64,000 nucleotides of DNA from Promicromonospora sp. Populi. Its GTDB lineage: Bacteria; Actinomycetota; Actinomycetes; Actinomycetales; Cellulomonadaceae. Below are positions 7,513 to 12,218 of this stretch, piece after piece. The stretch covers positions 3,410,001 through 3,474,000 of the forward strand of contig NZ_CP163528.1 in NCBI RefSeq assembly GCF_041081105.1, written 5' to 3'. How positions within the stretch are numbered: position 1 is the stretch's first letter; every line of letters starts with the position of its first letter. The position numbers and the translations under genes are program-made. The notes below the pieces were generated by a model. That model saw only the letters and a program-made list of their open reading frames with translations. It had not been told where the DNA came from and searched no databases.

Positions 7513-8649
7513 TCAGATCCAGCGCTTCCAGCGGAAGACGCCGAACAGGCCCACGCTCACGAACAGCATCGCGACCAGGGCCACCGGGTAGCCGTAGACC
7601 CAGTCGAGCTCCGGCATGACTTCGAAGTTCATGCCGTAGATCGTGCCGACGAGGGTCGGGGCGAACAGGATTGCCGCCCAGCCCGAGATCTTCTTGACTT
7701 CCTCGCCCTGCCGGATGCTGACCTCGGACAGGTGCTTCATCTCCTCGTTCTGCCGCTGCGCCGCGAGCGTGGCGGCGACGGTGAGGATGTCGCGCAGCGC
7801 AGCCCGGAAGACCTCGATGCGGTCGGCGGCCTCGGTGAGGTGGTCGGCGACGTCGCGCAGGTAGGCCTGCAGCTCCTGGTGCACGCCGTACTTGTCGGCG
7901 CCCTTGGCGAGCGAGGCGCAGAGGCTCTGCTCGGGCCGGACCGCGCGCTGGAAGTCGATGACCTCGCGGGAGAGCTCGTAGATGCGCCGCGACACGTCGG
8001 GGACGCCGCCCCACACGTCGGACTCGATCTCGTCGATGTCGTGGTCCAGCCCCGCGACCACCGGCGCGTACCCGTCCACGACGCTGTCGAGGATGGCGTA
8101 CAGGACGGCCTCGGGCCCGCGGGCGAGCATCTCGGGGTCCGACTCCAGCCGGCAGCGCACCGCGGCGAGGTCGGGCGAGGCGCCGTGCCGCACGGTCACC
8201 ACGAAGTCCGGGCCCACGAACACGTGCAGCTCGCCGAACTCGACCTCCTCGGCGTCGTCCAGGTAGCGCGCCGCGCGCAGCACCACGAACAGGGTGTCGC
8301 CGTACCGCTCGATCTTGGGCCGCTGGTGCGCCTGGATGGCGTCCTCGATCGCGAGCGGGTGCAGGTCGAACTCGCGCGCGAGCGACGTCAGCTCGGCCTC
8401 GTCCGGCCGCTCCAGCCCGATCCAGGCCATGCCGCCGGGCCGGGAGCGGAGCGCGCTGAACGTCTCGGCGAGGTTGTCGTAGCCGGCGGTGCGGACGCCG
8501 TCGTCGTAGATCGCGGCCGCGACCACCGACGAGCGGGGTTCCGGCGCGACGGTGCGCGGGGTGCTGTCAGGGACGACGCCGACGGCGCGCCGCTGACGCA
8601 GGGCGCCCAGCAGCGGACGGGAGGGGCGGGAGGGCAGGAACGTGGCCAT
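7513..8649 (-). CDS. corA: CorA-type magnesium/divalent cation channel
   Basis: A 378-aa inner-membrane Mg2+ channel. The long N-terminal cytosolic domain contains LHPLAIEDAIQAHQRPKIERYG and the C-terminus has the two helices with the selectivity motif YGMNFE (in TIYGMNFEVMPELD), ending FRWKRWI. GMN and the basic tail are diagnostic. ATG at 8649 is chosen because AGGAG lies six bases upstream. The leader between 8650 and about 8900 holds a 13-codon ORF with a perfect ribosome binding site and several hairpins, so expression is probably attenuated in response to Mg2+ or translation state (inference). Confidence 0.95.
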   Translation of the reverse strand: MATFLPSRPSRPLLGALRQRRAVGVVPDSTPRTVAPEPRSSVVAAAIYDDGVRTAGYDNLAETFSALRSRPGGMAWIGLERPDEAELTSLAREFDLHPLAIEDAIQAHQRPKIERYGDTLFVVLRAARYLDDAEEVEFGELHVFVGPDFVVTVRHGASPDLAAVRCRLESDPEMLARGPEAVLYAILDSVVDGYAPVVAGLDHDIDEIESDVWGGVPDVSRRIYELSREVIDFQRAVRPEQSLCASLAKGADKYGVHQELQAYLRDVADHLTEAADRIEVFRAALRDILTVAATLAAQRQNEEMKHLSEVSIRQGEEVKKISGWAAILFAPTLVGTIYGMNFEVMPELDWVYGYPVALVAMLFVSVGLFGVFRWKRWI

Positions 8650-8730
8650 GGGGAACTCCTGGGGTCGAGCGCAGGAAACGGACTGCGAACGCACCGCAAC
8701 GCCGGACGGCCGTACTACCGGTGGACCTCA

Positions 8731-8785
8731 CGCCCAGAAAGTGGGCGGAGCGCACCGGTGCGCGAGAGCCCGCTGGGACGCGGGC
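8731..8785 (-). promoter_or_regulatory. Hairpin series in the corA leader
   Basis: In transcript order: GCCCGC-GTCCCA-GCGGGC (8785-8768), the 14-nt palindrome GCGCACCGGTGCGC (8763-8750) and CGCCCA-CTTTC-TGGGCG (8747-8731). They lie between the leader-peptide stop codon and the corA ribosome binding site, where alternative pairing could control read-through or corA translation. Confidence 0.55.
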
Positions 8786-8799
8786 CGGGAACCGTCAGC

Positions 8800-8841
8800 T
8801 CAGCTGCGGTTCGGACTACTCGGAGGCTCGCTACGTGTCAT
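8800..8841 (-). CDS. corA leader peptide MTRSEPPSSPNRS
   Basis: A 13-codon ORF ending in TGA, preceded by AAGGAGGTGG (8857-8848), one of the strongest Shine-Dalgarno sequences in the window, seven bases before the ATG. It is on the corA strand about 150 nt upstream of the corA start. The peptide contains EPP and SP. The E. coli/Salmonella mgtA leader peptide MgtL is likewise short and Pro/acidic-rich, and its poor elongation at low Mg2+ raises transporter expression. A similar role here is inferred; the peptide itself is unlikely to have another function. Confidence 0.65.
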   Translation of the reverse strand: MTRSEPPSSPNRS

Positions 8842-8905
8842 GCGCGCCACCTCCTTAAGGTCCAGGCGGCGGATCGCCGCACCGTCTCGTTCTCGACAGT
8901 GGCCC

Positions 8906-8935
8906 AGTCTAGCCATGCCCGCGCGTGGAATCGAA
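8906..8935 (-). promoter_or_regulatory. Candidate corA promoter
   Basis: On the minus strand TTCGAT (8935-8930) is followed after 18 bp by TAGACT (8911-8906), which fits -35 and -10 elements. Transcription would begin near 8899, giving a leader of about 250 nt that includes the hairpin GCGGC-GATCC-GCCGC (8880-8866), the leader peptide and the downstream hairpins. Confidence 0.4.
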
Positions 8936-8964
8936 CCCCTTCGAGAGCAGGATCACAGAACTCG

Positions 8965-9843
8965 TCACCAGGCGTCGTGGGCCCGGTGGTGCACCCCGGG
9001 CGGGGTGTGGAACTCCCGCGGCGTCGGCGACAGGTAGGCCCGCGCGAACTCCAGCGAGGCGGCCAGGTCGTCGTGGCGCTCGGCGGCCGTGCGCGCCGCA
9101 CGGGTCGAGATCTCCACGCAGACGTCGCCGCTCCACTTGCGCGCGACCAGCTCCTGCAGCACCTTCTCGGCCTGCATGCTGCCGCGGCCGGGCACCAGGT
9201 GCTCGTCCCGGGGGCCGTGGTTGCCGTCCGCGAGGTGCACGTGCCGCAGGCGGTCGCCGAAGACACCCAGCAGCATGAGCGCGTCCTGCTGCGCCACGCT
9301 CGCGTGCGACAGGTCGAGGGTCACGGCGTCGTAGTCGTGCTCGGCGGGGTCCCAGCCGGGCAGGTAGGCCTGGAACTCACGCTTGCCACCGCGCCACGGG
9401 TACATGTTCTCGACGGCGATCGTGATGCCCGTCTTCTCGCTCAGCGCGCGCACCTGCTCCTGGAACTGCCGCGCGTACTTGTACTGCCAGCGGAACGGCG
9501 GGTGCACCACCACGGTCTCCGCCCCGAGCTCGAGGGCCATGTCCGCGGTCCGTTCGAGCTTCGCCATCGGCGACCGGCCCCAGACCCGCTGGCTCACCAG
9601 GAGCGTCGGTGCGTGCACCGATCGCACGGGCATGCCCGTGTCGGCGGCGAGCTTCGCCAGGGACCGGGGGTTCTGCGTGACCTCCTCGGACCAGATCATC
9701 ACCTCGACGCCGTCGTAGCCGAGCTCGGCCGCTGACTCGAAGGCCAGCGGCACACGTCGGGGGAACACCGACGCCGTCGAGAGCGTGACCTGCACGTCTG
9801 GTGCAGCGCTCTCCTGCGAGTCGGTCCGGATCGGTTCGGGCAT
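8965..9843 (-). CDS. Sugar phosphate isomerase/epimerase family (TIM barrel)
   Basis: A 292-aa protein of the xylose isomerase-like TIM-barrel superfamily (AP_endonuc_2). Supporting segments are LSTASVFPRRVPLAFESAAE at the N-terminus, ELGYDGVEVMIW, PVRSVHAPTLL, ETVVVHPPF, ITIAVENMYP, DLSHAS, HVHLADG and DVCVEIS, which match barrel strands with the metal-binding Glu, Asp and His positions. The exact substrate, possibly a sugar or inositol derivative, is unknown. ATG at 9843 is chosen because AAGGTGG lies about six bases upstream; a GTG at 9852 is less likely. The gene sits alone between ptsI and corA. Confidence 0.8.
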   Translation of the reverse strand: MPEPIRTDSQESAAPDVQVTLSTASVFPRRVPLAFESAAELGYDGVEVMIWSEEVTQNPRSLAKLAADTGMPVRSVHAPTLLVSQRVWGRSPMAKLERTADMALELGAETVVVHPPFRWQYKYARQFQEQVRALSEKTGITIAVENMYPWRGGKREFQAYLPGWDPAEHDYDAVTLDLSHASVAQQDALMLLGVFGDRLRHVHLADGNHGPRDEHLVPGRGSMQAEKVLQELVARKWSGDVCVEISTRAARTAAERHDDLAASLEFARAYLSPTPREFHTPPGVHHRAHDAW

Positions 9844-9901
9844 GCGGGCCACCTTAAAGCGACTACGTGACTGGAATGTGACCTGAGGGTTCAGATGAGG
9901 T

Positions 9902-11552
9902 TCAGGTGAGAAGACGTTCTCGGACGGCGTCGCGCGCCGCCTGCGCCGTCGGGAGGTCGAGAACCGCCCGGGCCAGCGCCGCGCACTCGTCGCGGGACAC
10001 CCCGGCCAGGGTGCTGGCTACGTCGGCCAGCGCACGGGGTGTCATAGACAGTGACGTTACGCCAAGCCCCACGAGGACGGGAGCGAGGAGGGGATCGGCC
10101 GCCGCCTCGCCGCACACACCCACCGGGACGCCGTGCAGCGCGCCGCCCTCGCACGCCAGGCGGACGAGCTGCAGGACGGCGGGCTGCCACGGGGTCGACA
10201 GGGCGGCCACACCGGCCAGGTCGCGGTCGGCCGCCATCGTGTACTGCGTGAGGTCGTTGGTGCCGAGGCTCGCGAACGACACCTCCGCCAGCACGTGCCG
10301 CGCCTGCAGCGCGGCGGCGGGGGTCTCGATCATCACGCCCGACTGCGCCAGGCCGTGGGCGGAGCACGCGGCGGCGAAGTCGCGGGCCTCGTCGACGGTG
10401 GCGACCATCGGCGCCATCACCCAGACCTCGGCCGTCTCCGCGGCGGCCGCCTGCGCTATCGCGTCCAGCTGGCGGTCCAGCACGTCGGGGTGCGCGACGG
10501 CGGTGCGCAGCCCCCGGACGCCGAGCGCCGGGTTGTCCTCGTGGTCCGGGGTGAGGAACCGCATCGGCTTGTCCGCGCCGGCGTCGAGCGTGCGGACCAC
10601 CACCCGGCCGCCCGGGAAATGGGACAGGACCGCCCGGTAGGCGGTCACCTGCTCCTCGATGCTGGGCTCCTCGCCGCGGCCCAGGAAGCAGAACTCGGTA
10701 CGGAACAGGCCCACGCCGCGCGCGCCCGCCGCGGCCGCCGCCTCTGCCGCCGCCGGGTCCGCGACGTTCGCGACGAGCTCCACCTCGACCCCGTCGCGGG
10801 TGACACCCCGGCCGTCGAAGGTGGCGGCGGTGATCCGGCGCCGGGCTCCCTCGACGTCGTCCGCGGACGGGGTGCGCAGGACGGTGCCGAGCGTGCCGTC
10901 CACCACGATCTCCTCGCCGTCGACGAGGTCGCCCGCACCGGGCAGGGCGACGACCGCCGGGATTCCGAGGGCGCGGGCCAGGATCGCCATGTGCGAGGTG
11001 GGGCCGCCACGCGCTGTCACGACCGCGGTGACCACTGCCGGGTCCAGCATGGCGGTGTCGGCCGGGGCTAGGTCGCTCGCGACCAGCACAAACGGGTGCC
11101 CCGGGTCGGGCACGCCCGGCGGGGCGGCGCCCGTGAGCGCGGCGACTATGCGGTCCCGCACGTCCCGCACGTCGCGGGCGCGCTCCGACATGGGCGGGCC
11201 GAGCGCCTCAAGCTGCAGGGCTACCGAGCCCGCCGCGTCCCACACGGCACGCTCCGGGGTGAGGCGGTCCTCCCGGACTCGGCGAGCTGCGCCGGCGGCG
11301 AGGGTCGGGTCGGCGGCCATGGCCGCCGTGACCGCCAGGACGTCGGCCGCGGTGCCCGCTGCGCGACTCGCGCGCTCCGCCAGGTCCGACTCGACCCGTG
11401 CGGCCGCCTCCTCGACGGCGCGGACGGCGTCGTCGGCCGAACCCGTCAGGCGACTGGTCCGCGGCTCCGGGACGCGGGCCGGGCATCCGGACCACTACGC
11501 CCACCGCCCGACCCGGGCTCGCCGGGACTCCCGTGAGCCTCTCGCTCGTCAT
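9902..11552 (-). pseudogene. ptsI: PTS enzyme I, apparent frameshift near the N-terminus
   Basis: Phosphoenolpyruvate-protein phosphotransferase, which passes phosphate from PEP to HPr. The C-terminal 470 residues are intact in one frame: the phospho-His site GGPTSHMAILARALGIP, the PEP-binding region GVGLFRTEFCFLGR and the late motif GVCGEAAADPLLAPVL. The true N-terminus MTSERLTGVPASPGRAVG lies in another frame starting at ATG 11552 with GGGGGGAAG upstream. The frames join if one base is removed in the GGG run at 11481-11483 (plus strand); then RMPARVPEPRTSRLTGSADD follows smoothly. The repaired length of about 549 aa is right for the family. Without repair the best start is ATG 11320, losing the HPr-contacting N-terminus. 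It is divergent from an EIIA gene. Confidence 0.85.
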
Positions 11553-11720: not shown

Positions 11721-12218
11721 ATGGCTGAGGCCCTGATCGTCGGCTCCCCCGTCGCAGGACGGGTGGTCGCGATGCGCGACGTGCCCGATCCTGTCTTCGC
11801 CGAGAGCATCGTGGGACCGGGGCTCGCGATCGATCCCGACCCCGGGCTCGGTGGGCGCGTCGTCGCGCCGTGCGCGGGGGTGGTGGTGAAGCTGCACCCC
11901 CACGCGTTTGTGCTGTTGGCGCCGCCCGCGGAGGAACCGGAGCCGGGCGCGGCCCCCGGCGGCCGGGGAGTCCTCGTACATCTTGGCATCGACACCGTCC
12001 AGCTCAAGGGCGAGGGTTTCACGCTGCTGGTCGCCGAGGGGGACACGGTGGTGGCCGACCAGGACCTCATCGTCTGGTCCCCCACCGCGGTGTCCGACGG
12101 CGGCCGCTCGCCCCTGGTGCCCGTCGTCGCCCTGGACCTGGGGCCCCGCGGCCTCGACGAGCTGGTCCGGCCGGGCACGCGCGTCCAGGCAGGGGATCCC
12201 CTGTTCCGCCTGACGTGA
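11721..12218 (+). CDS. PTS glucose-family IIA component
   Basis: A 165-aa EIIA(Glc)-type phosphocarrier that accepts phosphate from HPr and hands it to an EIIB domain. Family features are PVAGRVVAMRDVPDPVFAE near the N-terminus, GPGLAIDP, the first conserved His in VVVKLHPHAF, and the phosphorylated His in VLVHLGIDTVQLKGEGF. It ends VQAGDPLFRLT, the usual family end. ATG at 11721 gives the normal length. It is divergent from ptsI across 168 bp, and no EIIB or EIIC lies in the window, so it may serve several permeases. Confidence 0.9.
   Translation: MAEALIVGSPVAGRVVAMRDVPDPVFAESIVGPGLAIDPDPGLGGRVVAPCAGVVVKLHPHAFVLLAPPAEEPEPGAAPGGRGVLVHLGIDTVQLKGEGFTLLVAEGDTVVADQDLIVWSPTAVSDGGRSPLVPVVALDLGPRGLDELVRPGTRVQAGDPLFRLT

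Follow-up and report, generated by a model that had tools for sequence, protein, structure and literature searches.

Leader peptides that read Mg2+ have been elucidated in enterobacteria. A short open reading frame (ORF) upstream of a corA gene in the actinobacterium Promicromonospora sp. Populi (contig NZ_CP163528.1, positions 3,410,001 to 3,474,000; this whole stretch of 64,000 nucleotides is called the window below) raises the question of whether a comparable device operates there, and how far it extends. The first-pass annotation of this DNA had proposed a 13-codon ORF with a strong ribosome site ahead of corA, and both are borne out by the sequence and kept in relatives. The reading that we favor, to which we give a probability of about two in three, is that the ORF encodes a cis-acting leader peptide, in which translation through two successive proline codons of the form CCY-CCN reports Mg2+ and sets the expression of the transporter.

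The features of the locus are collected in Table 1. The gap between the leader ORF and corA amounts to 150 nt, and the leader is preceded on the minus strand by a TIM-barrel gene (PF01261) that ends at 8965. When the core pattern was sought in the organism's own genome with up to two mismatches, the window match alone was found to adjoin a Mg2+ transporter, and a second CorA (at ~3.92 Mb) and an MgtE (at ~4.59 Mb) have no core-pattern match nearby. A candidate tRNA remnant at 8935 was rejected, as ARAGORN recovers solely a tRNA-Gly at 866-937. Farther upstream of the TIM-barrel gene the window codes for a PEP-utilising enzyme (9902-11320; PF02896, PF00391), probably PTS enzyme I, and on the opposite strand to it an ORF at 11721-12218 resembles, by eye, a PTS IIA-like component.

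Table 1. Features of the corA leader region, in window coordinates, with the basis of each assignment
Feature	Position	Strand	Basis
Possible -35 TTCGAT, 18 nt before the -10 box	8930..8935	minus	by eye; TTCGA upstream of TAGACT in 12/13 genus loci
-10-like box TAGACT	8906..8911	minus	13/13 genus loci
Hairpin P0, GCGGCG-ATC-CGCCGC, upstream of the ORF	8866..8880	minus	RNAalifold, 13 genus loci: all stem cells paired, almost invariant
Possible stem P1, GGAC/GUCC + GGAGGU/GCCUCC	8813..8863	minus	RNAalifold in genus, nearly invariant
Ribosome site of the leader ORF, AAGGAGGTGG	8856-8847	minus	sequence
Shine-Dalgarno AGGAGG of the leader ORF, 8 nt spacing	8850..8855	minus	sequence
Leader ORF MTRSEPPSSPNRS including stop, 13 codons	8800..8841 (ATG 8841 to TGA 8800)	minus	102 loci and synonymous core changes
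Core GAG CCT CCG AGT (E-P-P-S), proposed sensing codons	8818..8829	minus	codons fixed in 82 distinct instances
Hairpin P2, GAACCG...CGGTTC, across the ORF stop codon	8789..8812	minus	compensatory change
Hairpin P3, CCCGC/GCGGG	8769..8784	minus	RNAalifold in genus
Palindrome P4, GCGCACCGGTGCGC	8750..8763	minus	sequence; nearly invariant in genus
Hairpin P5, GCCC/GGGC	8732..8746	minus	RNAalifold in genus, variable loop
Shine-Dalgarno AGGAG of corA	8656..8660	minus	sequence; AGGAG in 12/13 genus loci
corA, CorA-family Mg2+ transporter	7513..8649	minus	PF01544, E 3.5e-60; own-genome match

Coding constraint on the leader ORF

The leader ORF was recovered at 102 loci, a count into which several genomes enter twice through two collections, and 82 of these instances are distinct from -40 to +60. 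Conservation was followed most closely in a CorA survey, in which 59 related genomes were searched with the window CorA and gave 30 loci (L003-L032), further matches being mostly weaker; the ORF was scored by the presence of ...SEPP among the first codons after a start. Among the matches listed, the ORF is present in 21 of the 30 loci, comprising 21/21 at CorA identities of at least 69% and 0/9 at 54-66%. This split exceeds chance. Close relatives thus keep the ORF, whose absence from them would, by the first-pass annotation, have spoken against the reading. Across the 13 loci of the window's own genus the ribosome site and the ORF are nearly identical and many flanking positions vary.

Examination of the six core codons across the CorA survey revealed six alternative codons, all of them synonymous and all at the third position, in contrast to the equal mixture with nonsynonymous changes that the first-pass annotation had named as a refutation. 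Variants that differ in length by one codon (MRSEPPS, MTRSEPPS, MQRSEPPS, PPSDS) preserve the reading frame. Because the core changes in this survey are synonymous and the length changes frame-preserving, the leader ORF is likely to be translated, and, as judged from these alignments, it is conserved as a coding sequence. Four MgtE loci that the motif had missed read MHSEPPS, MCSEPPS, MRGEPPS and MLGEPPS; since the R and the S before the core change amino acid in these loci, E-P-P-S emerges as the invariant core. The E-P-P lies at residues 4-6 in 49 loci and at residues 5-7 in 53, and the peptide tail drifts between clades, giving total lengths of 11-33 residues.

These patterns also bear on the possibility that what is conserved is an RNA element, either a riboswitch or a protein-binding site, to which the ORF is incidental. 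Such an element would be in keeping with a codon choice fixed beyond the peptide (CCY, AGU), with the stable structures predicted for the leader, and with the ORF tail in the g51 genomes, which is conserved at wobble positions too. The synonymous, third-position nature of the core changes in the CorA survey argues against it, as do the one-codon indels that preserve the frame, the G-rich ribosome site and ATG or GTG start that precede the core in all 82 distinct instances, and the lack of any Rfam match to the leader in the tested loci. On balance we consider an RNA element with an incidental ORF quite improbable, and retain the translated leader peptide as the preferred reading.

Association with Mg2+ importers of unrelated families

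The leader ORF precedes CorA in 73 loci (55 distinct), one clade of MgtE in 28 (26 distinct) and an NRMT-like NRAMP in one. When about 85,000 named species genomes were scanned with the core pattern, 42 stretches were recovered, 40 of them with an in-frame start; the other two (L053 and L059) were rejected for want of an in-frame start codon. Of the 40, 39 lie before CorA and one (L058) before the NRAMP. The carriers before CorA are Promicromonospora, Isoptericola, Myceligenerans, Antribacter, Krasilnikoviella, Xylanimonas, Puerhibacterium, Cellulomonas, metagenome-assembled genomes (MAGs) and Klenkia, which we take to be a member of an order other than the window's; the leader occurs both inside and outside the latter order.

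A second pattern, applied to 394 genomes of the class, gave 22 matches as against five for the backward control. These fall before CorA in 12/12 g279 genomes and one other genome, and before MgtE in three g51 and two g49 genomes. The remaining four (L083, L084, L097, L102) were set aside as chance matches, having CCG/AGC codons, no ribosome site that convinces by eye and, within 1.5 kb, nothing that the CorA, MgtE or NRAMP queries matched. A sample of g49 yielded the leader in 10/199 genomes (backward control 0) and one of the g51 family in 13/201 (backward control 1), in every case before the same MgtE clade, and among sampled g51 genomes it is present in 15/15. A sample of the phylum gave matches in 2/296 genomes (backward control 1); both are g51, and hence no leader was found outside the class in this small sample. 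In a separate scan the backward control gave three matches against a single true one, that of the window itself. Across the scans there were no motif matches combining the fixed codons, a start and a ribosome site away from Mg2+ transporters.

The MgtE assignment is based on PF01769/PF03448 in the five loci tested and on 72-99% identity in the rest. An orthologue query in 32 chosen genomes recovered 30 MgtE loci, with the leader in 15/15 at 72-99% identity (11 of these 15 coming from genomes chosen for having the motif) and in 0/15 at 28-30%. In terms of gene context, therefore, the leader is found before Mg2+ importers that belong to two unrelated families, perhaps to three, in several actinobacterial groups. 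Its earlier description as the leader of a Mg2+ channel gene, corA, was right to tie it to Mg2+ transport and too narrow in scope, given that the leader stands before MgtE as well and, in a single case, before an NRMT-like NRAMP. As a separate observation, all seven genomes of one g279 sample lack an MgtE_N match, while 12 g279 genomes carry the leader before CorA; the leader-bearing CorA may be a main Mg2+ importer in g279.

This breadth of context is informative with respect to another alternative, namely a small functional protein, the product of the ORF, that would work on the transporter or on some other target and not through its translation in cis. Mg2+-related microproteins are known, and the N-terminal residues are strongly conserved. 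The tails, however, differ between clades over a range of 11 to 33 residues, the same core stands before structurally unrelated transporters, and the fixation of rare codons would be unexpected for a trans-acting protein. We accordingly hold a small protein of this kind to be very improbable, and the cis-acting leader peptide remains our preferred explanation.

The single NRAMP case comes from one actinomycete MAG, in which the leader ORF MRSEPPSSRSAGPSLLVLREI lies at L058:5892-5957. The best PDB match of the encoded protein is the Mg2+ transporter EleNRMT (7qia), with an E-value of 3.3e-47 as against 2.1e-16 for the next. By eye it displays the NRMT-type TxxA in helix 6, and DxxA instead of the DxxG motif with which NRMTs are described in the excerpted text of PMC8806188. 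No leader of this type was seen in 30 loci of other NRAMP homologues in the class. M-boxes (RF00380, 139-145 bits) were detected upstream of 4 of the 12 closest L058 homologues (49-59% identical), namely L188, L189, L210 and L212, all of genus g50, on the same strand and 480-680 nt ahead of the aligned start; at these four, an EPP leader of the type searched for was not found. Because of these M-boxes, the clade of the L058 NRAMP is apparently placed under Mg2+ regulation elsewhere by a different device.

These observations bear in turn on what the leader peptide might read. A cue other than Mg2+ is conceivable, such as prolyl-tRNA, another divalent metal, or the capacity for EF-P function or tRNA methylation: Pro-Pro is in general translated slowly and in dependence on EF-P, and CorA- and NRAMP-type transporters can carry other metals. 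CorA and MgtE are, on the other hand, known chiefly as Mg2+ transporters, the L058 NRAMP groups with the Mg2+-transporting EleNRMT and M-boxes stand upstream of 4/12 of its homologues; moreover, the cues just listed could themselves be the means by which Mg2+ is read. A leader peptide reading something other than Mg2+ thus appears unlikely, and the Mg2+-reading leader peptide is the form of the hypothesis developed below.

Fixed codons and comparison with known Mg2+ leaders

In the 82 distinct instances the first proline codon is CCT in 61 and CCC in 21, with neither CCG nor CCA, and the serine after Pro-Pro is AGT in 82/82; these counts are not independent, because the loci are related by descent. 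As some of the scans demanded CCY and AGT codons, the 43 loci from sets without that demand are of particular relevance (21 from the CorA survey, 18 from the class scan after dropping the four chance matches, and four from the MgtE survey), and in these CCY and AGU are likewise present in 43/43. In the downstream transporter genes (49 genes, four clades), CCY makes up 36-61% and CCU 1-12% of proline codons, and AGU 0.4-8% of serine codons. According to the excerpts of a review (PMC6335274), CC[C/U] followed by a pyrimidine is a context dependent on m1G37-tRNA that is tied to Mg2+ sensing in mgtL. This context is present here in 82/82 distinct instances and in 43/43 unselected loci.

These features lead us to a tentative proposal, which we hold at clearly below even odds: the fixed CCY-CCN-AGU string, beyond the peptide it encodes, could be the Mg2+ gauge itself, combining the Mg2+-dependent m1G37 methylation of tRNA-Pro by TrmD with slow decoding of AGU. 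Whether through descent, transfer or convergence, one such module would have come to stand before CorA, MgtE and NRMT-like importers in actinobacteria, where it would take the place of the M-box. A different reason for CCY would be that CCUCC sequesters the ORF's own Shine-Dalgarno, and two Antribacter loci with GGGGG do have CCC. Counter to this, 19 of the 21 distinct CCC instances have GGAGG, which entails an A-C mismatch, and one GGGGG instance has CCU. Another candidate output, a +1 frameshift at CCY-C, was rejected: reading in the +1 frame can continue beyond the stop in 82/82 distinct instances, but shuffles allow this as well (the product over 16 representatives being 0.16).

The leader shares several features of the MgtL and CorL type, being a short ORF in the 5' leader of a Mg2+ importer gene with early acidic and proline residues and m1G37-type codons. 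It resembles MgtL, encoded before mgtA in Salmonella and E. coli, in these early residues and in the type of proline codons (PMC6335274 and PMC11282234, in excerpt); unlike MgtL, it has E-P-P-S with one acidic residue where the excerpted account of MgtL gives E-P-D-P (PMC11282234), and the genes that follow it code for CorA, MgtE and, once, an NRMT-like NRAMP rather than for MgtA. CorL of Salmonella and E. coli is likewise encoded before corA, its translation being inversely linked to corA expression with the involvement of Rho; it is described in the excerpted source as having a conserved N-terminal region, a single proline and, in E. coli, a UUG start (PMC11552253), in contrast to the Pro-Pro with fixed codons seen here, which is found before non-CorA families as well. 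By kind, we infer with good reason that this is a Mg2+-reading leader peptide, MgtL/CorL-like in mechanism; it appears to form a family separate from both, CorL being set apart by its description and not its letters.

Among other known systems, the corA RNA motif is also a conserved element upstream of corA, but it comes from Gammaproteobacteria and metagenomic DNA and is a proposed riboswitch, which the excerpted text does not describe as coding (PMC6429828). The M-box (ykoK, RF00380) also controls Mg2+ genes but is an aptamer RNA, and its covariance model finds no match in window positions 8000-10400 or in 14 leader loci; the same window segment has no match to any Rfam family even at E-values up to 5. 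Rv1805A, in the pe20 M-box leader of M. tuberculosis, is, like the present ORF, a conserved actinobacterial uORF, and its Mg2+-responsive leader is described as subject to Rho-dependent termination; unlike the present ORF, Rv1805A lies downstream of an M-box, is mycobacteria-specific and has one widely conserved proline, at position 7, in the excerpts of PMC12810186. Amino-acid attenuators have an intrinsic terminator with a U run behind a leader ORF rich in the amino acid that they regulate; the window leader has no terminator-like site and corA is not a biosynthesis gene. We found no description of this leader in the PMC full-text literature (subscription papers are mostly outside this coverage), where the sole match to the peptide strings is a paper on Campylobacter. 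The family therefore appears to be undescribed in Rfam and in the literature covered.

If the proposed reading is true, the Actinomycetota would have a separate family that applies the same logic to unrelated importers, which would suggest that reading Mg2+ through hard-to-translate prolines is a general solution. The natural variation, with E-P-P-S kept, CCY and AGU fixed and the tail free, would separate the effects of peptide and codons, and so bear on whether MgtL-type sensing works through ribosome destabilisation or tRNA methylation. The leader would also serve as a DNA motif for annotating the regulation of Mg2+ importers.

Promoter, RNA folds and the proposed output

The upstream promoter put forward in the first-pass annotation finds support in a conserved -10-like box. 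Most clades have a TANNNT box ahead of the ORF: in 21/21 CorA-survey loci it is 64-102 nt upstream, in 12/12 g279 loci about 50 nt upstream, and it occurs in 4/6 other loci of the 394-genome class scan, the exceptions being L098 and L104. When the same stretches are shuffled, the expectation per locus is 0.35 in the genus and 0.10 in the others. No such box was seen upstream of the ORF in L058, L098, L104 or three Klenkia loci. A strict E. coli-type sigma-70 scan of the window leader gave no match, and the promoter claim rests for this reason on conservation. A scan of the window leader for intrinsic terminators found no terminator-like site.

The window leader folds better than its shuffles (z -2.61; 0/200 as good). 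The hairpin across the stop codon, P2, is the sole one for which compensatory change across genera lends support: 91 of 96 cells are paired in 16 chosen Promicromonosporaceae sequences, with double-sided change at three pairs, and 7/5000 arm shuffles reach 91/96, a figure that, as the sequences are related, is no true probability. The putative stem P1 would pair the ORF's own Shine-Dalgarno with the Glu-Pro-Pro codons, a pairing that other genera do not keep in perfect form. All three stretches annotated earlier as hairpins after the ORF are present in the sequence, but for the P4 palindrome RNAalifold on the genus alignment prefers a CACCGGU partner further down over the local hairpin. Hairpins with a 5' arm starting right after the core are predicted in g51 and g279 too. 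On average, folding after the core beats shuffles by a modest margin in 12/12 clades (clade mean z -0.5 to -2.9), though it is weak in several clades, not seen in every sequence, and different between genera. A chain of pairing near 8690-8656 was noticed by eye alone, and we make no claim on it.

In the mechanism that we envisage, transcription would start upstream of the ORF, and the ORF would be translated from its strong ribosome site, with the early Glu-Pro-Pro-Ser, having CCY for the first proline and the rare AGU for serine, presenting a difficult passage kept by selection. With ample Mg2+ the ribosome would reach the stop codon inside hairpin P2 and the importer would be shut down; at low Mg2+ it would lag or drop off at Pro-Pro, the leader RNA would switch state and the importer would be made. 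We infer that Mg2+ is the signal, as well as its direction, the stalling or drop-off and the output step, the direction being taken from MgtL and CorL as excerpted in PMC11282234 and PMC11552253.

Concerning the output, the opening of the transporter start site was modelled (52 loci, four clades), and its mean cost is 0.3-1.3 kcal/mol higher when a ribosome occupies Pro-Pro, in each of the four clades; single loci are mixed, and a ribosome at the stop codon shifts the cost in both directions. The notion that stalling frees the transporter start site is thus not supported, the mean change in cost having the wrong sign, a result that bears on this one output step. The translation-coupled Mg2+ control proposed in the first-pass annotation is supported in part, namely in a probably translated leader ORF with conserved EPP codons, its tie to Mg2+ transport and a conserved -10 box upstream. 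As that model gives no support, transcription termination, likely by Rho, becomes our first guess for the output, by analogy with MgtL, CorL and the Mycobacterium M-box leader.

Predicted pairing between the ORF tail and the downstream leader, relative to sequences from other clades, is better in g51 (z of mean -2.0) and in G708 and NRMT, each a single-sequence clade; it lies between -0.9 and +0.6 in eight clades and is worse in Myceligenerans (+1.7). In the g51 loci (L099-L101, L144-L155) the second half of the ORF, which reads CGAAGGCCGCGCGGCGCC in most of them, is the part conserved at wobble positions too, and folding predictions pair this tail with bases a short way ahead of mgtE.
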